A program made the position numbers and the translations under genes. Of a stretch of DNA of 64,000 nt, positions 3,276 through 12,593 are shown one piece after another. The stretch lies in the NCBI RefSeq assembly GCF_032716425.1, contig NZ_CP090419.1, forward strand, positions 3,407,001 through 3,471,000, given 5' to 3'. The DNA comes from Pseudoalteromonas sp. N1230-9 (GTDB lineage: Bacteria > Pseudomonadota > Gammaproteobacteria > Enterobacterales > Alteromonadaceae). Under the pieces are notes generated by a model. It ran no database searches, had not been told where the DNA came from, and worked only from the letters and a program-made list of their open reading frames with translations. Positions within the stretch are counted from its first letter, which is position 1, and the number at the start of each line of letters is the position of its first letter.

Positions 3276-5156
3276 TTAATCTTCAAAATACGTGTAGCCT
3301 GCAAGGCCGGCATTTAGTTCGGACAAATATTGTGCCTTATATTGCTCATCAATTGCCAGTTCACTGACCCTTTTTGCGAAGTTTTCAGCAAGAATTTCGC
3401 TATCATAATCAACAAACTTTAATACGTCCTTAACGCTATCACCTTTTATTGCATTCGTTAGCTGGTAGCCGCTGTCGGTGAGTTCCACATGAACCGAGTC
3501 AGTATCACCAAACAAGTTGTGTAAATCACCTAAAATTTCTTGATATGCCCCCACTAAGAACATCGCAATATGGTACTGCTGCCCCGGTTTATATTCAGGG
3601 ATAGGTAGGCTGCTCTCAATCCCCGTGCCTTCAACATAATTACGGATTTGCCCATCAGAATCACAGGTAATATCTTGAATAATGGCGCGTTGGGTTAGTG
3701 GCTGATGTAAATTTTCAACAGGCATGACGGGGAATAACTGTTGAATCCCCCACACGTCTGGCAATGATTGAAACAATGAAAAGTTAACAAACAGTTTGTC
3801 AGCCAACTTTTCATTGAGATCATCGAGCACCTCACGATGCGCACGTGCATTTTCGCTAAGCGAAGCACGAACACGATGTAAAATAGTAAAATAAAGCTGC
3901 TCTAGCTTAGCCCACTCAAGCATGCTCAGTAAGCCGTGCACATATTGGTCGTGAGCTTCACTAAATAAATGCATAGCATCATGATAGATTTCTAAGGCCA
4001 TACGGGGTGTTAAACGCTGTAAGCATTGCCACATATCTTCAAGCACTAACACACTATTTGTTTCTGGAGGCGCAGGGTTAGCATGATTAGGCGCACGCTC
4101 AACGTCAATCACGTCAGTAATCAATACCGCGTGGTGCGCAGTTAACGCACGACCCGACTCTGTAATAATAGCTGGATGTTTTAAGTCATGCTGTTGGCAT
4201 ACTTCAGCAAACGCATTCACAACATTACGTGCATACTCTTCAACACTATAATTCATTGAACATGCGCTACGTGAACCAGAGCCTTCATAGTCAACACCGA
4301 GTCCTCCACCAACATCAACGGTATTAAGAGGCACACCGAGTTGTGTTAGCTCAGCAAAGTGGCGGGCACATTCGCGTAACGCTCTATGAATGTCACGGAT
4401 ATTGGCAATTTGTGAACCGATATGAAAGTGCACTAGCTGCATCAGGTGTAATTTATTATGTGATTTTAATAACTCAACAGCCGAAAGCACCTGTCCCGCC
4501 GTTAAGCCGAACTTACCTTTTTCACCACCTGTGTTTTGCCACTTACCTTTACCCACGGAGTTTAAACGGATACGAATACCAATTGAGGGTTCAATACCTA
4601 AATCATCAATTTCAGTTAATAGCGTTGTTAACTCAGAAAGCTTCTCAACGACAATGTGAACTTTATGACCAAGGGCTTGACCTATGCAGGCTAGGCGCAA
4701 AAACTCACTGTCTTTGTAACCATTACAAACAATGGTAATAGGGTTTTGCGCAACACCCAAGATCGCCATTAATTCAGGTTTAGAACCTGCTTCTAAACCA
4801 ACCAAGCCGCTTGGATGAGCCAGAAGTTTAGTTACCACAGAGCGCTGTTGGTTTACTTTAATTGGGTATACACAAGTATAACTACCTTGATAATCTCGTG
4901 CATCGCGTGCTTTGGTAAATGCACTCGTTAAAGTGCCAACACGATTTTGCAGAATATCGGTAAAACGCACTAGAACAGGTAATGTTAGACCTTGCTTTTT
5001 AAATTGTTCAGTCAGTTCAGATAAGGAAATCGCCGCCTTAGCTTGATCACCATCAGGGTAAGCAACCAGCTCTCCCTGCGCATTAATGTCAAAATAGCCG
5101 TCACTCCAATGAGCGACATTATACGTGTTGCGTGCTTTATCTAAACCCCAAGTCAT
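3276..5156 (-). CDS. speA: Biosynthetic arginine decarboxylase
   Basis: The enzyme converts arginine to agmatine and CO2, a first step to putrescine. The 626 residues are close to the 630-660 usual for SpeA. The PLP lysine lies in YTCVYPIKVNQ (K100), and the VDVGGGLGVDYEG phosphate-binding segment and a late VLEDMWQC segment are present. The start MTWGLDKAR agrees with family N-termini. Neither agmatinase (speB) nor S-adenosylmethionine decarboxylase (speD) is in the window, but spermidine synthase lies 7.7 kb away on the other strand. Its leader is 5157-5333. Confidence 0.96.
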   Translation of the reverse strand: MTWGLDKARNTYNVAHWSDGYFDINAQGELVAYPDGDQAKAAISLSELTEQFKKQGLTLPVLVRFTDILQNRVGTLTSAFTKARDARDYQGSYTCVYPIKVNQQRSVVTKLLAHPSGLVGLEAGSKPELMAILGVAQNPITIVCNGYKDSEFLRLACIGQALGHKVHIVVEKLSELTTLLTEIDDLGIEPSIGIRIRLNSVGKGKWQNTGGEKGKFGLTAGQVLSAVELLKSHNKLHLMQLVHFHIGSQIANIRDIHRALRECARHFAELTQLGVPLNTVDVGGGLGVDYEGSGSRSACSMNYSVEEYARNVVNAFAEVCQQHDLKHPAIITESGRALTAHHAVLITDVIDVERAPNHANPAPPETNSVLVLEDMWQCLQRLTPRMALEIYHDAMHLFSEAHDQYVHGLLSMLEWAKLEQLYFTILHRVRASLSENARAHREVLDDLNEKLADKLFVNFSLFQSLPDVWGIQQLFPVMPVENLHQPLTQRAIIQDITCDSDGQIRNYVEGTGIESSLPIPEYKPGQQYHIAMFLVGAYQEILGDLHNLFGDTDSVHVELTDSGYQLTNAIKGDSVKDVLKFVDYDSEILAENFAKRVSELAIDEQYKAQYLSELNAGLAGYTYFED

Positions 5157-5333: not shown

Positions 5334-6890
5334 TTAGGGTGCCGTTAGCTGGCCTTCATCTACACTCAAAACGCCTGTATAGGCTATGGGTGCCAGCTCT
5401 GGCTCACTTACGAGTAAAAGCGTGAAGGAGTACTGCTCAGCAACATCATTCAGTAACTGCCTGATCTCAGGGTGAGCAATAAACACCGGCAAATCGATTA
5501 CCAATACCGCAGGTTGTATAAGTAGTGCTCTCGCTAATAAAATTCTGGCGACTAAGCTTTGTGGACAACCGCGTCCAAGCTCAGCAACTCGGCTATCTAG
5601 TAAAGATTCATTAAATCCTAATTTTGCAATGAATGCTTCAACCTCTGTACTTCGCTTTTTTCCCGTGCCGTATAAAATATTGCTGTAAATTGATCCCTTA
5701 AAAAGCTGAGAAAATTCATCAATAACAACAATCAACTGCTGTAAACGTCTAAAGTCTAGGTTTTCAAACCGTCTTCGACCTAACACTAAAAACCCAGAGA
5801 CAGGTTCTAGTTGTTGCGCAAGAGCGCGACATAGCATTGACTTACCAGCTTGCCCACGAATTAAAATACGCTCGCCAGCAGCAATCACAGCATTACACTC
5901 TGGCATTGCACTCAAAATACGTAACTGACGTAGTTTTAAATCATAGCGTTGAAAACGCTTTAAACGATGCTCCGCACGCTTTGTTGTTAATGTGCAGCGA
6001 TCATGAGCTAATTTTAAACGCTTTCGAGCAACATAAAAGTTAACCCAATCGGCCCAGCTTCTAATTAAATAATCGATACTCAATAAACATAGAGATAAAA
6101 TAAGTACGCGAACTAAACTTGACCACGCCATTATGTTCATATCTTTTGAGTTCAGTACGATTAAAGTGGTCACTGTGAGTGGTGCTAAGCTTCGGCATAT
6201 TAAAATACCTCCTCGCCAATACACAAGCTGCCATGCTAAATCACGTCCTCGACGATCAATACGCTTCACTTCTTTACCTTGATTCCTCATCCGAGCAACA
6301 TTGAGATAACCAAAGCAACGCTCGCTCAAATGCCCACTTAAGCGACCACGACTAGTACGAATATTACCCGCGACCCGCAAAGCCCACAGCGTAATGGACG
6401 CAATAAAAGCAAACACTATAATCACAGCAAGTAGTACATCAAAAGCCAGTTTTTGATTCTGCATAAACAGCAGCCAACCAAAAACGATTAGCCCTATTCC
6501 TCCCATTTGTCCGTAAGCTAAGCCTCGTCCTGCAAAATGAGCAACACCATTGGCGTCACTTATTAAGCGGTTCATAGCCACGCCAAGACGGTTGGGCCCA
6601 TGCTCTATATCTGCACTCAACATCCGCTGAAAAAGCGCATTACGATATGCTAAAACGAGTTTCTGTCCATTTTGCTCGGCAAGAACACTGAGGCAAAATC
6701 TGGCTACAAGATTAACTAAAACGCCCCCCAAAAGTGCTATGGTTAGCGAGAACACCTCGCTTTGCCAAGCATTTGAAAACCAAATTAACTTGTAGCTACT
6801 CGCTCCTACACTTAGCAATGCTAATAGAGTGAGGGATATAAGCCGCAACGGCCCAATCCCCGACAAAAATGTAGGAAATCCACTGTTCAT
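5334..6890 (-). CDS. ABC-exporter-like half-transporter with a degenerate nucleotide-binding domain
   Basis: The 518-residue protein has about six hydrophobic segments (roughly 15-37, 46-70, 130-143, 150-172, 228-247, 256-275) laid out like a type IV ABC exporter, then a short ATPase-like domain (about 320-518). Key motifs are altered. Walker A is RGQAGKS (345-351), two residues shorter than GxxGxGKS. The Q-loop position reads ID (390-391). The signature is LGRGCPQ (438-444). Walker B is VLVIDL with Leu467 where the catalytic Glu should be, and the H-loop has Glu496 in place of His. The frame is intact, so this is not simple decay. Translation is probably coupled to the P-loop gene, whose stop lies one base upstream. 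It may be a regulator, a scaffold or half of a heterodimer. Substrate unknown. Confidence 0.75.
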   Translation of the reverse strand: MNSGFPTFLSGIGPLRLISLTLLALLSVGASSYKLIWFSNAWQSEVFSLTIALLGGVLVNLVARFCLSVLAEQNGQKLVLAYRNALFQRMLSADIEHGPNRLGVAMNRLISDANGVAHFAGRGLAYGQMGGIGLIVFGWLLFMQNQKLAFDVLLAVIIVFAFIASITLWALRVAGNIRTSRGRLSGHLSERCFGYLNVARMRNQGKEVKRIDRRGRDLAWQLVYWRGGILICRSLAPLTVTTLIVLNSKDMNIMAWSSLVRVLILSLCLLSIDYLIRSWADWVNFYVARKRLKLAHDRCTLTTKRAEHRLKRFQRYDLKLRQLRILSAMPECNAVIAAGERILIRGQAGKSMLCRALAQQLEPVSGFLVLGRRRFENLDFRRLQQLIVVIDEFSQLFKGSIYSNILYGTGKKRSTEVEAFIAKLGFNESLLDSRVAELGRGCPQSLVARILLARALLIQPAVLVIDLPVFIAHPEIRQLLNDVAEQYSFTLLLVSEPELAPIAYTGVLSVDEGQLTAP

Positions 6891-6891
6891 A

Positions 6892-7956
6892 CTAGGCTGT
6901 ACCTGATGTGTAAGCGTCAGTTCCTAAAATATAACAAGCTGTTGTAGGGTCGCGTAAATCAGCTAAATCATACACAGTCATTCCTAATGCATTTGCCGCC
7001 TCACGTGTGGCTAATGGAGAAGCACAGATACGTCCACCAATTCCCTGCACATTGTATCCCTGGTTCACCAGCCAACTGGCACCACTTTGCGCCCCCATAG
7101 CTTCGCGTGCAGTAAATAAAACATTTGGAAAATGTTGTTTAAAGTCAGGACTTTCTAGAATCGCATTTGTTTCTTGTTGATAGATACCATCAGCCACTTC
7201 AATCACAATTGCAGTGCAACCCTTGCGTATTAGTTCTGCCGCTAGAACAGGATAAATTTGCTTCGCTTGTTCATTACCAATATTAAAACTTGTTGGATAA
7301 CCTGCATCAGTAAAGTCAAGTACGTGCGCGGCACCTGAATCCTTCATTAGCCAAAGATCACCACCTGCTCCAGTGCCTGTAATCTTCATTGCCCCCACAG
7401 TGTGACCAGCAGCATTTAAACCATGAATTAAATGGGCCGCTGTGGTTGTTTTACCCGCATTCATCGAAGTACCAACCACCACCACGCTTGGCACACTATT
7501 GGCTACGAGTCCATATTGATGGCTGGGCAGTTTATAATCAGCGACATTTATAACCTGATCATGTTTATTGGTGATTAATCCTATTGGTTGAATAGCAGTG
7601 GGTACTGAAATGCGACTGTGCCAACCAAGCGCTAAACCAGCAATACCACCAGCAGCAACCATATGACAAGCATCTAAGTTATTGGGTACGGTCGCTTCAA
7701 ATTGATCTGGAGCATAACGATTGCCAAAAGCGAGAATAATCTCATCACCTTCATATAAAGTTGCTTTACGACCATCAATTCGTTCTATTTTTGTGTGGTG
7801 ACCAATCTCTGTCACTCTTGCTAATACAAGGTCACCACTTTTAGGTGACTGGTTTGTGTTTAATCCCTGCAAATCATTGCTGTCTACTCGGCGCGTTACA
7901 AAAGCACGCTTTGCAGACTGAAGGCGCTGTGACATAGTGTAAGATGATGCTGACAT
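6892..7956 (-). CDS. P-loop NTPase-like protein (DUF1611/dethiobiotin-synthetase-like fold), function unknown
   Basis: I place the start at Met 7956, where AGGA lies 8 bases upstream; an in-frame ATG at 8016 has poorer support. The 354-residue product has a beta-rich N-terminal domain (about 35-140, with GDLVLARVTEIG, YEGDEIILAFGNRYAPDQFE and MVAAGGIAG), then a nucleotide-binding domain starting with GTSMNAGKT (162-170). It continues with MKITGTGAGGDLW, a conserved VLDFTDAGYPTS stretch and VIEVADGIYQQET, which could hold catalytic acids. The fold resembles MobB, dethiobiotin synthetase and DUF1611 proteins. The substrate is not evident. The gene immediately precedes the degenerate ABC gene and is probably its functional partner. 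Confidence 0.7.
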   Translation of the reverse strand: MSASSYTMSQRLQSAKRAFVTRRVDSNDLQGLNTNQSPKSGDLVLARVTEIGHHTKIERIDGRKATLYEGDEIILAFGNRYAPDQFEATVPNNLDACHMVAAGGIAGLALGWHSRISVPTAIQPIGLITNKHDQVINVADYKLPSHQYGLVANSVPSVVVVGTSMNAGKTTTAAHLIHGLNAAGHTVGAMKITGTGAGGDLWLMKDSGAAHVLDFTDAGYPTSFNIGNEQAKQIYPVLAAELIRKGCTAIVIEVADGIYQQETNAILESPDFKQHFPNVLFTAREAMGAQSGASWLVNQGYNVQGIGGRICASPLATREAANALGMTVYDLADLRDPTTACYILGTDAYTSGTA

Positions 7957-8217: not shown

Positions 8218-8616
8218 ATGTCGTTATCCAACAATAAACAATGCCATTTTATCCCTTTAGCAATCGTTTTATTTTTGCTGACAGGGTTCGCTTATGGTCA
8301 AGATGAGCAGTGCACAGTTCAAAGCAACACTCCCTCAGCGAAAGTTTTTTATCGCTTTATTAAAAAGTTTAAAGCTGAAGACTTATTAAATGGGGAGACT
8401 CTTTTGAAATCAAATGTGCAGCAACTCGACTGTCAACCAGTCTTTAAGGTCAAAATTGTTAATCGTAGTGGTGATGTCAGTCATCGTTATTACCAAACCG
8501 ACACCTTTGAGTTGATATTAGATGATAGTAAAAAGCAATGGGATCCCATCAACCGTGTTTTTCAAGAATTAGATAAACTGGTTGGTGATAAGAGTAGCAG
8601 CAAGGAACAACCATAA
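8218..8616 (+). CDS. Small exported protein, PepSY-like, first gene of a two-component operon
   Basis: The 132-residue protein begins with a signal peptide (hydrophobic core about 11-25, likely cut after FAYG). The mature part has two Cys (C33, C57), a VFKVKIVNRSGDV strand pair, an FELILDD segment and a charged tail. The layout suggests a PepSY-like periplasmic domain, a common companion of OmpR-family two-component systems, but the match is weak and the family is not certain. It lies 11 bases before the response regulator gene and directly behind the repeat-bearing promoter. It may modulate the sensor. Confidence 0.6.
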   Translation: MSLSNNKQCHFIPLAIVLFLLTGFAYGQDEQCTVQSNTPSAKVFYRFIKKFKAEDLLNGETLLKSNVQQLDCQPVFKVKIVNRSGDVSHRYYQTDTFELILDDSKKQWDPINRVFQELDKLVGDKSSSKEQP

Positions 8617-8627
8617 AAGGAAGCAAT

Positions 8628-9290
8628 ATGCGCGCGTTAGTCGTTGAAGATAATACTCAAGCTGCCGAGCAAATTAGTCACGCATTAACTGAACATGGAT
8701 TTGCAGTCGATCAATGTCATGATGGTGAAGAAGCGTGGTTTATAGGTGATACGGAAGAATATGATATCGCTATTTTAGATATTGGCTTGCCAAAACGTGA
8801 TGGCTTAAGTGTCTTATCTGATTGGCGAAGAAATGGTAATAAAATGCCCGTTATTATCTTAACCGCCCGTGATACATGGCGTGAGCGGGTAACAGGGTTA
8901 AGAGCTGGCGCAGATGATTACTTAATCAAACCATTTGAAATGGAAGAATTACTCGCACGCGTAGAAGCCCTTGTTAGGCGCAGCAATGGCCATGCTAGCA
9001 GCGTTTTAAGTGCCGGTTCTTTGGAATTAGATACCGCAACTCAACGTGCGACACTGGCAGGAACTCATCTTGATCTAAGCGCATTAGAATATCGTTTACT
9101 CGCCTACTTAATGAATAGACAGAATCAGGTTGTCTCCAAAGCAACACTGACAGAGCATTTATATCAAATGGACTTTGAACATAACTCAAATGTTATTGAA
9201 GTTTTGGTCAACCGTGTACGTAAAAAGCTAGGCACCACGCATATTCAAACCCGACGCGGACAAGGATATCTTCTCAATGCCGACGAATAA
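8628..9290 (+). CDS. OmpR-family response regulator (PhoP/QseB-like)
   Basis: The 220-residue protein has a receiver domain (1-115) with acidic residues E8 D9, phospho-acceptor D51 in ILDIGLPKRDG, a conserved Thr in ILTARD and a Lys in YLIKPFE. A winged-helix DNA-binding domain follows (about 125-218, ending RRGQGYLL). An AAGGAAG ribosome-binding site precedes the start. It overlaps the kinase gene by 14 bases. It probably binds the 11-bp-period repeats before its own operon and before the porin; that link is inference. Family members of this length include PhoP, QseB and PmrA, and which one applies cannot be settled here. Confidence 0.9.
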   Translation: MRALVVEDNTQAAEQISHALTEHGFAVDQCHDGEEAWFIGDTEEYDIAILDIGLPKRDGLSVLSDWRRNGNKMPVIILTARDTWRERVTGLRAGADDYLIKPFEMEELLARVEALVRRSNGHASSVLSAGSLELDTATQRATLAGTHLDLSALEYRLLAYLMNRQNQVVSKATLTEHLYQMDFEHNSNVIEVLVNRVRKKLGTTHIQTRRGQGYLLNADE

Positions 9291-10644
9291 AACTTACTCG
9301 TTACGCGGTCGTTTAATCCAGCGCATGATCATTTTCATGATAATTGCGCTGAGTGTGTTATCGGTGGCACTAGTCATGCTTTTCGACTCATATATAGAGC
9401 GACGATTTGACCGAACGCTAACAAATAAATCAAACTCGTTATTGGCTGCCACACAGTTCACCGCATCTGGGGAGTTACAGCTGGATCACATCTCTGCGGC
9501 AGCGCGATTTCAAGAACCTTTATCTGGTTGGTATTGGCAAGTCATTCATCAAGGTGAGGTAAAACAGCAATCAGCTTCTTTATATGCCGACGCCCCGTTT
9601 CCTTTAATTGCTGAGCATAATAACCCGCAGCTAACTTTTATTGAATTTGAAGGACCAACAGGCTTAGCCTTACGAGGGGCCATTCGTCGTGTTCATTTTC
9701 AAGCTATCGATCAAACGGTATTCATCATTGTCAGTGGTCCAAAAGATGATATTCATAGTGATGTAATTGCTTTTGCAACACGCTTAATAGTCGCGTTTGC
9801 ACTTTTAGGCTTAGTATTTGCCAGCCTTTTACTCTGGCAACTAAAAAAAATGCTTCATCCGATAAAAGAGTTACAACGAGGAATTCGCGCCATTCGAGAT
9901 GGACAGCAAGACTCCTTGACTTTATCTCTTCCGAATGAGCTTGATGAAGTACAAACTGAACTTAATCATTTGCTACAAAATAATAAAGAAATATTAGAAC
10001 GAGCTCGTTTGCAAGCATCGAATCTCGCTCATGCTTTGAAAAATCCAATTTCAGTGCTGAAGAATCATGCAAATCAGTTACCTCAAAGCGACGCAAAAAT
10101 CATTCTCGAACAAGCTGAAAAGCTGAGTCAAAGCACGCATAGCCACTTGGCACGCGCTCGTTTGGCGGGCTCATTTGAAAAACTGGCAGCAAGAACCAAT
10201 GTCGCAGACACACTCAGTGAGCTGATTTTTAGCCTTGAGCTTTTATATAAGCAAAAAGGCTTGAAAATAGATTTCTCTTGCCACCCTCATCTGCAATTTA
10301 ATGGCGATAACCATGATCTTGATGAGGTCTTAGGGAATCTAATCGATAATGCCTGTAAATGGGCCATACAACGTGTATTTATTAAAGCAACACATGTTGA
10401 GCGAGGCATAGAAATATGCATAGAAGATGACGGCCCAGGTATTCCAATCACTGAACGCCAAACTGTGTTTGCTCCTGGCAAGCGCTTAGATGAAACAACA
10501 CAAGGCAGTGGCTTAGGCCTCAATATAGTTCAAGATATTGTTCTACTGTATGGCGGCACTATTTCCTTGTATGACAGTACACTTTCAAAAACAGGTTTAG
10601 GTATCACTTTGCTACTACCTGGCACGCATATAATCATGGATTGA
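9277..10644 (+). CDS. Sensor histidine kinase (PhoQ-like H-box)
   Basis: The 455-residue inner-membrane kinase has transmembrane segments at about 13-36 and 164-188, a periplasmic sensor of about 125 residues between them, a HAMP-like linker (190-240) and a dimerization domain with NLAHALKNPISVL (H252), close to PhoQ-type LxHxLKxPLxVL. The ATPase domain carries the N box (NLIDNACKWA), G1 (EDDGPGIP) and G2 (GSGLGLNI) motifs. The start overlaps the regulator gene by 14 bases. The stimulus is unknown; the neighbouring periplasmic protein and lipoprotein suggest envelope sensing. Confidence 0.9.
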   Translation: MPTNKTYSLRGRLIQRMIIFMIIALSVLSVALVMLFDSYIERRFDRTLTNKSNSLLAATQFTASGELQLDHISAAARFQEPLSGWYWQVIHQGEVKQQSASLYADAPFPLIAEHNNPQLTFIEFEGPTGLALRGAIRRVHFQAIDQTVFIIVSGPKDDIHSDVIAFATRLIVAFALLGLVFASLLLWQLKKMLHPIKELQRGIRAIRDGQQDSLTLSLPNELDEVQTELNHLLQNNKEILERARLQASNLAHALKNPISVLKNHANQLPQSDAKIILEQAEKLSQSTHSHLARARLAGSFEKLAARTNVADTLSELIFSLELLYKQKGLKIDFSCHPHLQFNGDNHDLDEVLGNLIDNACKWAIQRVFIKATHVERGIEICIEDDGPGIPITERQTVFAPGKRLDETTQGSGLGLNIVQDIVLLYGGTISLYDSTLSKTGLGITLLLPGTHIIMD

Positions 10645-10658
10645 CACTCGGAGTTCTT

Positions 10659-11447
10659 ATGAAACAATTAATCTTATCAATTGCTTTATTTACCCTAACT
10701 GGATGCCAGCTCACTGAATTAATTAAAGATCCTGGGACAATTGAAACACAACTGAAAAAACAGCATGCCTTAGCAGCATTGGCGATCAACGAAGAGCTTG
10801 ATCTGTTTTTAAGTGATCAAGGTCGTCAGCACCTGTTTCGTGAGTTGGCTCATAGCCTAAAAAAACCCACACACAGTAAAATAGTTAATCAAGACTCAGT
10901 GACTAAAACTCGCTGGACGGCAACCATCGACGACACCACTTTACAAGCCTTTCAGCTACAACGTGTTGGTCAAGAAAGTATAAAAACCAATTTTGAACTC
11001 ATGTTTCTTGATATACCGGTGATTAGCAAAAATAAAATATCTCTTTTTCAGGCGCCATCGCCTGATTCAGCACCAATGGGTCAAATTGCCAAGAATGAAT
11101 TAGTGAAAGTGCTAGCCTTAGAGCTTAATGAAGAATGGGCATTAATTGAGCGAGATAACCAGCTCATCGGCTATGCAAAATATGCCGATTTTGAAAATAC
11201 AATCAAAAAGCGAGATTTTCTAAACAGCCGTCCGTATGAGCTAAAAGTAACATATGATAACGATCTAACCCGCGATGGCTATGTATTACCTATTCACCAC
11301 ATTTTTGGGTTAGCGCAGTGCCGCATTGTTAAATTACAATTTAAGCGCCAAGCGATACAACAGCAGCGCACTATCAATTTATGCCAAAAAACACCTGATG
11401 TTTGGTTTATTGATCCTCACCACGATAGCGCAACCACAGCCAATTAA
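10659..11447 (+). CDS. Lipoprotein with an SH3-like domain
   Basis: I prefer the start at 10659, which has GGAG 6 bases upstream, over an in-frame start at 10641. The 262-residue product has a lipoprotein signal ending LTGC, so it is probably lipid-anchored. Residues about 120-185 look like a bacterial SH3 fold (KISLFQAPSPDSAPMGQIAKN, then VKVLALELNEEWALIE and GYAKYADF). The rest is not recognised. It is the last gene of the two-component operon (14 bases after the kinase stop by this start) and may be a wall-contacting accessory. Confidence 0.7.
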   Translation: MKQLILSIALFTLTGCQLTELIKDPGTIETQLKKQHALAALAINEELDLFLSDQGRQHLFRELAHSLKKPTHSKIVNQDSVTKTRWTATIDDTTLQAFQLQRVGQESIKTNFELMFLDIPVISKNKISLFQAPSPDSAPMGQIAKNELVKVLALELNEEWALIERDNQLIGYAKYADFENTIKKRDFLNSRPYELKVTYDNDLTRDGYVLPIHHIFGLAQCRIVKLQFKRQAIQQQRTINLCQKTPDVWFIDPHHDSATTAN

Positions 11448-11537: not shown

Positions 11538-12593
11538 ATGCGATACTCATACACTATTTTCCCTGTAACCCTACTACTCACAAGTGCACAAGTCAGCAGC
11601 AGTGACATACAATTAAAAGACTTAATAAATGAGCTTGATATTTCACCTTACGCTAATTTAAAAATTGCCGCGACTTATAGCAATAAGCAAGAAAAAACAA
11701 ATGAACGGTCAAACCGTTCTTCTCAACAGTGGCAATTAAAAGATAATGCCAGTAAAGCAGGAGTTAAATTTAATTACCCTGTTGCCCAAAGCAAGATCTA
11801 CGGTCGTTATGAATTGGGAACCAATGCTAATACTGATGACACGCCCTTTTTTAAAACTCGGCAAGCCTATTTAGGTGTACGCACCCAATGGGGGAAACTA
11901 CAGTATGGGCAACAAAATGCGATTGTAAAAAACTACGACAACTTTGACCGTAGCCACCGTGTGGGCGCATCGGTTCATTTAACAAAAGACGAGTTAAACA
12001 CCAAACGCCCTTCTCATACCATGCAATATCACACTCGCTTTGATGAGTTTCGCCTTTCAGGTCAATACAACTTCAGCCGCACACTGGAAAATAGACCGCA
12101 ATTGAGAATTGGTAGCCAGCGATTGAGGGTCAAAGATACTAAGCTAGATTACGGGGTTGGACTAGGTATTCATTACACAGGTCTCAAAAATATCGAGCTT
12201 GAAGCTGGTTATCAAGCCAGCTATTACGAACAAGCCAAGTATCATACCCACATCGCTTCTGCTAAATGGCAAGCAAGCTCAAATTTGCAAGTTTCTATTT
12301 ATGGCGCAACACACTCACTCAAAGACTTACAAAAATCTAAAACCGCAGAATCTCGACACTACGCACTTGGCGCTCGTTATCGTTTATTTGACCAGCACCG
12401 AATCTATGGCAGTCTAGAGTATGCTTATGGCGCTAATGACATAAAAGGAGCGAAGCAACGCGCCCTTGTCATTGGTAACGACTATCGATTTGCATCGCAA
12501 AAACACGCTTATGTAGAAATTCGAAAACGTTATTTCGATGCTGATAAGGCTGATGATATTAATGTGGCTCTTGGCATTAATATTAAATTTTAA
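11538..12593 (+). CDS. Outer-membrane porin, Gram-negative general porin type
   Basis: The 351-residue protein has a signal peptide (about 1-21), a beta-strand-rich body and a C-terminal Phe after NVALGINIK, as needed for Bam-dependent assembly. Porin signatures include FFKTRQAYLGVRTQWGKLQ, followed by YGQQNAIVKNYDN, where trimeric porins have LG(L/V)xxxxGxxxxGRQ and the constriction loop. The usual acidic PEFGG loop motif is not seen. It is monocistronic, with its own promoter region and a hairpin over the start. It is likely controlled by the upstream two-component system, which would make solute permeability an output of that system. Confidence 0.8.
   Translation: MRYSYTIFPVTLLLTSAQVSSSDIQLKDLINELDISPYANLKIAATYSNKQEKTNERSNRSSQQWQLKDNASKAGVKFNYPVAQSKIYGRYELGTNANTDDTPFFKTRQAYLGVRTQWGKLQYGQQNAIVKNYDNFDRSHRVGASVHLTKDELNTKRPSHTMQYHTRFDEFRLSGQYNFSRTLENRPQLRIGSQRLRVKDTKLDYGVGLGIHYTGLKNIELEAGYQASYYEQAKYHTHIASAKWQASSNLQVSIYGATHSLKDLQKSKTAESRHYALGARYRLFDQHRIYGSLEYAYGANDIKGAKQRALVIGNDYRFASQKHAYVEIRKRYFDADKADDINVALGINIKF

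Follow-up and report, generated by a model that had tools for sequence, protein, structure and literature searches.

A P-loop gene and an ABC half-transporter gene with a degenerate ATPase lie one base apart

The stretch of DNA analyzed here, called the window, comprises 64,000 nucleotides of Pseudoalteromonas sp. N1230-9 (contig NZ_CP090419.1, positions 3,407,001 to 3,471,000). At the locus under study, a gene for a P-loop protein ends at position 6892 and is followed, after a single base, by a gene for an ATP-binding cassette (ABC) half-transporter whose nucleotide-binding domain (NBD) is degenerate. The features of the pair are:

5334..6890, minus strand: ABC-exporter-like half-transporter with degenerate NBD, 518 amino acids (aa); transmembrane domain (TMD) at residues ~1-315, NBD at ~316-518
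5838..5855, minus strand: shortened Walker A, GQAGKS, two residues missing (from alignment)
5715..5717, minus strand: Q-loop position, Glu replacing Gln (from alignment)
5553..5567, minus strand: ABC signature position, CPQSL (from alignment)
5490..5492, minus strand: position of the Walker B catalytic Glu, Leu (from alignment)
5403..5405, minus strand: position of the H-loop His, Glu (from alignment)
6892..7956, minus strand: P-loop protein, 354 aa, ATG at 7956; N-terminal all-beta domain and BioD/DUF1611-like SIMIBI domain
7447..7473, minus strand: intact P-loop GTSMNAGKT of the partner (from sequence)

The mechanically called open reading frame (ORF) of the P-loop gene reaches 8016; the length of the database copy P0040, 354 aa, agrees with a start at the ATG at 7956. 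The ABC gene is an uninterrupted frame, and its product was matched by the Pfam models ABC_membrane (32.6 bits, cut-off 28) and ABC_tran (42.1 bits, cut-off 25). Its motifs read GQ--AGKS (Walker A), VIDEF (Q-loop), CPQSL (signature), VLVIDL (Walker B), and VSE (H-loop). Compared with an active homodimeric ABC exporter, the protein has the six-helix TMD fused to an NBD fold in its model and lacks the motif set, Walker A being short and the other four motifs replaced. The five altered motifs in an open frame, the intact membrane domain, the one-base spacing, and the intact GTSMNAGKT had all been pointed out in a preliminary description made from the sequence, and all were found.

An AlphaFold2 model of the window ABC protein (41 sequences; mean predicted local distance difference test score, pLDDT, 88.8) shows six long helices and a confident NBD fold. 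In a Foldseek search with this model, ABC exporters came out on top: TmrAB was the best solved match (TM-score 0.88 on the query), followed by MsbA (0.87 on the query), TAP, and TM287/288. As modeled, the fold of the protein is retained, and the catalytic letters are lost. A 97% identical copy (P0001) is labeled Lelliottia steviae in one source; this host label is odd for an otherwise Pseudoalteromonas gene, and the record is possibly mislabeled.

The pair recurs across phyla

A database search with the P-loop protein returned 2914 proteins at E <= 1e-3. It belongs to a large, cross-phylum family and is not the orphan it had been called. A scan of GTDB contigs gave at least 568 confirmed relatives, of which the best 80 loci, those closest to the query, were analyzed. 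They are distributed over Pseudomonadota, Cyanobacteriota, Chloroflexota, Thermomicrobiota, Actinomycetota, and Thermodesulfobacteriota. Directly downstream of the P-loop gene, on the same strand, lies an ABC-exporter-like ORF in 77 of the 80. Since these loci were chosen by closeness to the query, an evenly drawn sample of 369 genomes of the class Gammaproteobacteria was added. Besides the window's own, it contained 17 loci above 380 bits in 16 genomes, and the ABC gene adjoins the P-loop gene in 16 of the 17. The co-occurrence as neighbors that the preliminary description proposed to check is thus borne out.

In a phylum sample of 398 genomes, three had a match including the window's own, and the two further loci also carry the pair, both with noncanonical NBDs. 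Within the window's family the P-loop gene was detected in 2/147 genomes, again counting the window's own. Three weaker relatives (155-261 bits) were fetched, and none of them has an adjacent ABC gene. The best 80 loci and the Gammaproteobacteria loci have three identical P-loop rows in common; the combined set used below contains 98 rows (97 loci and the window), 95 of them different. At L081 a canonical ABC gene of the family is located 4.5 kb upstream of the P-loop gene, and at L132 6.3 kb upstream; at L022 and L053 no ABC gene was found within the locus DNA examined. Genome G422 holds two P-loop copies (L126 and L132), one of them being the copy located 6.3 kb from its ABC gene; L081 is similarly split. 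A search of titles and abstract openings in the open-licence literature, with a limited set of terms, returned no title on the pair.

The ABC partners range from canonical to NBD-less

The 98 rows comprise 44 canonical, 40 degenerate, and 6 NBD-less ABC partners, 4 partners cut by contig ends, and 4 rows without an adjacent ABC gene. A partner was classified as canonical if Walker A, signature, Walker B, and H-loop were all standard; the Q-loop was not counted. The Q-loop Gln is present in none of the 44 otherwise canonical partners, its replacement commonly being Pro (in PD-LPLLRG), and in six of six aligned ABC proteins of the window genome (out of eight other matches). With this Gln replaced in every canonical member, coupling between NBD and TMD may be unusual throughout the family. 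Homodimeric type IV exporters such as MsbA have the six-helix TMD and NBD fold in common with this family; the family differs from them in the Q-loop, in its degenerate and NBD-less members, and in the adjoining P-loop gene.

Among the degenerate partners, six (L016, L020, L077, L130, L131, and L135) have a full-length Walker A, a signature of the form LPxxL, Asp or Arg where Walker B has its Glu, and no His in the H-loop. L016 has a Gln at the Q-loop position despite being degenerate. Judged by these motifs, the six could represent a form able to bind ATP and probably not to hydrolyze it. Walker A is also lost in the four Vibrio members and in the alphaproteobacterial members scored. The proteins consisting of a TMD only belong to six Sphingomonadales (three Novosphingobium, Blastomonas, Erythrobacter, and a Sphingomonadaceae metagenome-assembled genome). 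A search started from the Blastomonas protein returned 10 clusters of 305-315 aa (P0160-P0169), showing that the NBD-less form is no assembly artifact.

Motif loss is recurrent and mainly confined to one domain

A careful tree of the P-loop proteins (90 rows) requires at least three changes between the canonical and noncanonical states, five for Walker A (with four shortened loops scored as present), and two for the presence of the NBD; these counts do not separate loss from gain, and the tree contains long branches. A single clade of all noncanonical rows was rejected on this tree (approximately unbiased test, p-AU 1.4e-41; the result of a quick tree was already known when the test was made). 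Motif decay is therefore recurrent, as the preliminary description had suspected, and it is mainly confined to one domain. Among canonical pairs, conservation is higher in the NBD than in the TMD in 888 of 936; among degenerate pairs the relation is the opposite (195 of 772). When the window is compared with L013 (P. arabiensis), 3 nonsynonymous and 14 synonymous codon changes fall in the TMD, and 14 and 10 in the NBD (Fisher p 0.012). The corresponding dN/dS ratios (NG86) are 0.085 for the TMD, 0.32 for the NBD, and 0 for the P-loop protein.

Local pseudogene decay is ruled out by the open frame, by the constraint on the TMD and on the partner, and by the recurrence of the losses in other orders and classes. 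The preliminary description had named homologs with canonical motifs as the sign of such decay. Such homologs exist (the 44 canonical partners), and the same set of rows has 40 degenerate and 6 NBD-less partners.

NBD-less members keep the intracellular loops

The NBD-less proteins, in which the whole ATPase domain is missing, have first and second intracellular loops (ICL1 and ICL2) of nearly full length: ICL1 spans 27-31 residues versus 31 in canonical members, and ICL2 47-49 versus 48. For residue counts (L062 numbering), the contig-cut L028 and L033 were included, giving eight NBD-less rows. E105, R116, D146, and G157 are kept in 8/8, position 153 is W or Y in 8/8, and R212 is kept in 7/7. 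The helices of the window ABC model break at residues 93-101 and 194-203, and from these breaks it follows that the conserved residues would be located at the intracellular loops.

The P-loop partner resembles SIMIBI proteins

The MN-x-GK P-loop is intact in all 98 partners (95 by pattern and three variants by eye). Two further motifs are conserved, E-x-ADG in 98/98 and K-x-TGT in 96/98. Structure comparison of the predicted fold by Foldseek and VIA matched SRP (signal recognition particle) GTPases, DTBS, HypB, and CTP synthetase, all of which we take to be members of the SIMIBI class; by VIA, small-molecule enzymes are among the closest folds. By predicted fold and intact P-loop, the partner is a SIMIBI-type P-loop NTPase. 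It scored below the family cut-offs of both DUF1611 (PF07755; 20.5 bits, cut-off 25) and BioD (TIGR00347; 15.9 bits, cut-off 83.3), and it differs from BioD and DUF1611 proteins (PDB 2g0t and 2obn) by its N-terminal beta domain and the adjoining ABC gene. For this beta domain no match was present among those listed by Foldseek and VIA, which is no evidence for a new fold. DgcN is linked with DUF1611, and a DgcN-like D-glutamate enzyme is only a lead for the function of the partner. The dgcN gene is described in PMC12363236, the available part of which draws no tie to the P-loop family.

A proposed lasting enzyme-membrane domain pair with a dispensable ATPase

Our preferred explanation, held tentatively and with somewhat less than even confidence, is a conserved two-gene module in which a BioD-like enzyme and a membrane domain are the lasting pair and the ABC ATPase became dispensable. 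The P-loop gene would encode an enzyme of the BioD/DUF1611 (SIMIBI) kind that is located in the cytosol, probably depends on ATP, and acts on a small molecule. The ABC gene would encode an exporter-type membrane protein, probably a dimer, which carries the substrate or product of the enzyme across the inner membrane; a porin of the outer membrane is often encoded nearby. The ancestral ATPase was presumably canonical except for the Q-loop, the canonical state being that of ABC exporters at large. From it, staged decay may have proceeded in several lineages including that of the window, with loss of the hydrolysis residues, then of Walker A, and in some lineages then of the whole domain. Throughout this decay, the P-loop partner would have been retained, as would the membrane domain together with its intracellular loops. 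The decayed ABC proteins would still transport, and flux through them would be driven by the enzyme making or consuming the solute, not by ABC ATP hydrolysis.

Several observations weigh against this explanation. The P-loop partner also lies beside canonical ABC proteins, making its link to ATPase loss indirect, and the adjacent ABC gene is missing in 4 of 97 loci. The quick tree, also with long branches, requires only two changes between canonical and noncanonical states. The NBD of the window protein is relaxed and not clearly neutral; between the window and L015, the contrast in dN/dS is weak (TMD 0.23, NBD 0.27, few changes). Foldseek's own ranking places SRP GTPases first for the partner, and the match to the BioD fold is confined to the C-terminal domain. 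Finally, R142 is kept in 44/44 canonical rows but in 1/8 NBD-less rows.

We rank flux coupled to the substrate first, followed by the P-loop protein as energizer, an ion-driven carrier, and an anchor or receptor. In the second of these explanations, the P-loop protein binds to the TMD at its intracellular loops and drives the conformational cycle of this domain in place of the NBDs, leaving the fused ATPase free to decay or vanish; ArsA with ArsB is the comparison for such a SIMIBI energizer. The nearly full-length ICL1 and ICL2 of NBD-less members with the conserved residues around them, the invariably intact P-loop, and the tight pairing of the genes speak for it. It is nevertheless doubtful, given the 44 canonical ABC proteins next to the same P-loop protein, the small-molecule enzymes among the closest folds, and the loss of R142, which is near D146, from all but one NBD-less row. 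The preliminary description had proposed that the partner may supply the nucleotide-dependent step. Because canonical homologs share the same neighbor, the partner is no mere substitute for the lost ATPase; in the wider sense that it energizes the membrane domain, the proposal may still hold. The earlier interpretation of the pair is thus partly supported.

Somewhat less probable, and in our view unlikely, is that the decayed forms work as secondary transporters powered by an ion gradient, with the P-loop protein as a pathway enzyme without mechanical role. The precedent is SbmA/BacA (SLiPT): according to the available part of PMC13316013, SbmA-like transporters are ABC membrane domains without NBD that use protons, the coupling helices are lost together with the NBD, and an evolutionary loss of the NBD is proposed. 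The likeness to them extends to the six Sphingomonadales relatives only, since the window protein keeps the NBD fold in its model. Unlike these transporters, as described in that part of the source, the present family has both loops at nearly full length and a P-loop partner, suggesting that something may still dock there. As to a glutamate ladder for proton coupling, a trait of SLiPTs, the alignment contains no acidic column conserved exclusively in the degenerate or the NBD-less group; wherever columns are acidic and conserved in these groups, the canonical group has acidic residues there as well.

That the decayed membrane domain is an anchor or receptor, which tethers the P-loop enzyme or senses its ligand without transport, would fit the loss of motor motifs with retention of the cytosolic loops, and the presence of two-component genes next to the pair in the clade of Pseudoalteromonas and Vibrio. 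We consider it improbable, as the six-helix exporter fold is kept in the model and porins at many loci suggest a solute.

A degenerate half-transporter partnering a canonical half encoded elsewhere is very improbable. According to the available part of PMC7756269, heterodimeric exporters with a single degenerate site are frequent, and such sites still bind ATP. TAP, TM287/288, and TmrAB are of this kind, and the six members with full-length Walker A resemble them in their changed Glu and signature. Many members here, however, have lost Walker A or lack an NBD altogether, and a half without NBD would be unable to form a composite site. No canonical half was found beside the ABC gene within the window, and the eight other ABC matches that the window genome does encode reach only 20.5 to 27.5 bits, none being a close relative. 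An NBD borrowed in trans by the half-transporter is possible.

ABC transporters are defined by their ATPase. The present family displays living stages from canonical through motif-less to ATPase-less proteins, with the membrane part, the coupling loops, and a second P-loop protein kept, and it makes testable how a primary pump changes its energy source. SbmA is the one precedent that we found.

Neighboring genes point to envelope solute traffic

Divergent from the pair, the window contains the following genes:

8218..8616, plus strand: small protein with a relative at the corresponding position of L013-L020 (8/80 loci); divergent neighbor, no Pfam match
8628..9290, plus strand: PmrA/PhoP-like response regulator; conserved neighbor
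9277..10644, plus strand: PhoQ-like histidine kinase; conserved neighbor
10641..11447, plus strand: weak SH3_3 match (25.5 bits, below the cut-off of 27); conserved neighbor
11538..12593, plus strand: outer-membrane porin (Porin_4); conserved neighbor

This set of five is found in Pseudoalteromonas, Bowmanella, Vibrio, and Thaumasiovibrio (the same eight loci and the window); L021 (V. owensii) does not share it. Recurrent genes at other loci, within the DNA examined, encode an alpha/beta hydrolase (18 loci) and an O/P-type porin (12 loci); those recurring in Alphaproteobacteria encode an extracytoplasmic function (ECF) sigma factor, an anti-sigma-like protein, and a subtilase. Taken together, the neighboring genes point to envelope solute traffic.

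After the ABC gene, the window encodes the arginine decarboxylase SpeA (3276-5156, by Pfam). In the related Bowmanella locus L011 (11772-13758; same contig as L014), the ABC gene is followed by agmatine deiminase- and N-carbamoylputrescine amidase-like genes, which we take to be AguA/AguB-like; the genes in the two places correspond to different steps of putrescine synthesis. These genes suggest a polyamine function, which was not adopted as the main explanation, the loci of Vibrio, Thaumasiovibrio, and P. haloplanktis being without the SpeA cluster.

Several unrelated neighbors of the pair contain low-complexity stretches of Asp, Gly, Ser, and Asn, a possible clue to the substrate. Examples are the small secreted protein of L017-L020, the protein upstream of the P-loop gene in L024, L026, L033, and L064, and alphaproteobacterial subtilases such as L050:14023-15570, which was matched by mycosin, QhpE, and PatA peptidase models, all under cut-off. 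At least 17 of these four residues per 20 were found in 28 of 1239 ORFs; 27 of the 28 belong to four neighbor clusters (17 to the subtilase family), and the remaining one is found in L061, upstream of the P-loop gene. By a second measure, 27 ORFs have low entropy (two of them are masked runs), and every one is situated no more than 7 kb from the P-loop gene; of all 1425 ORFs, 993 are that close.
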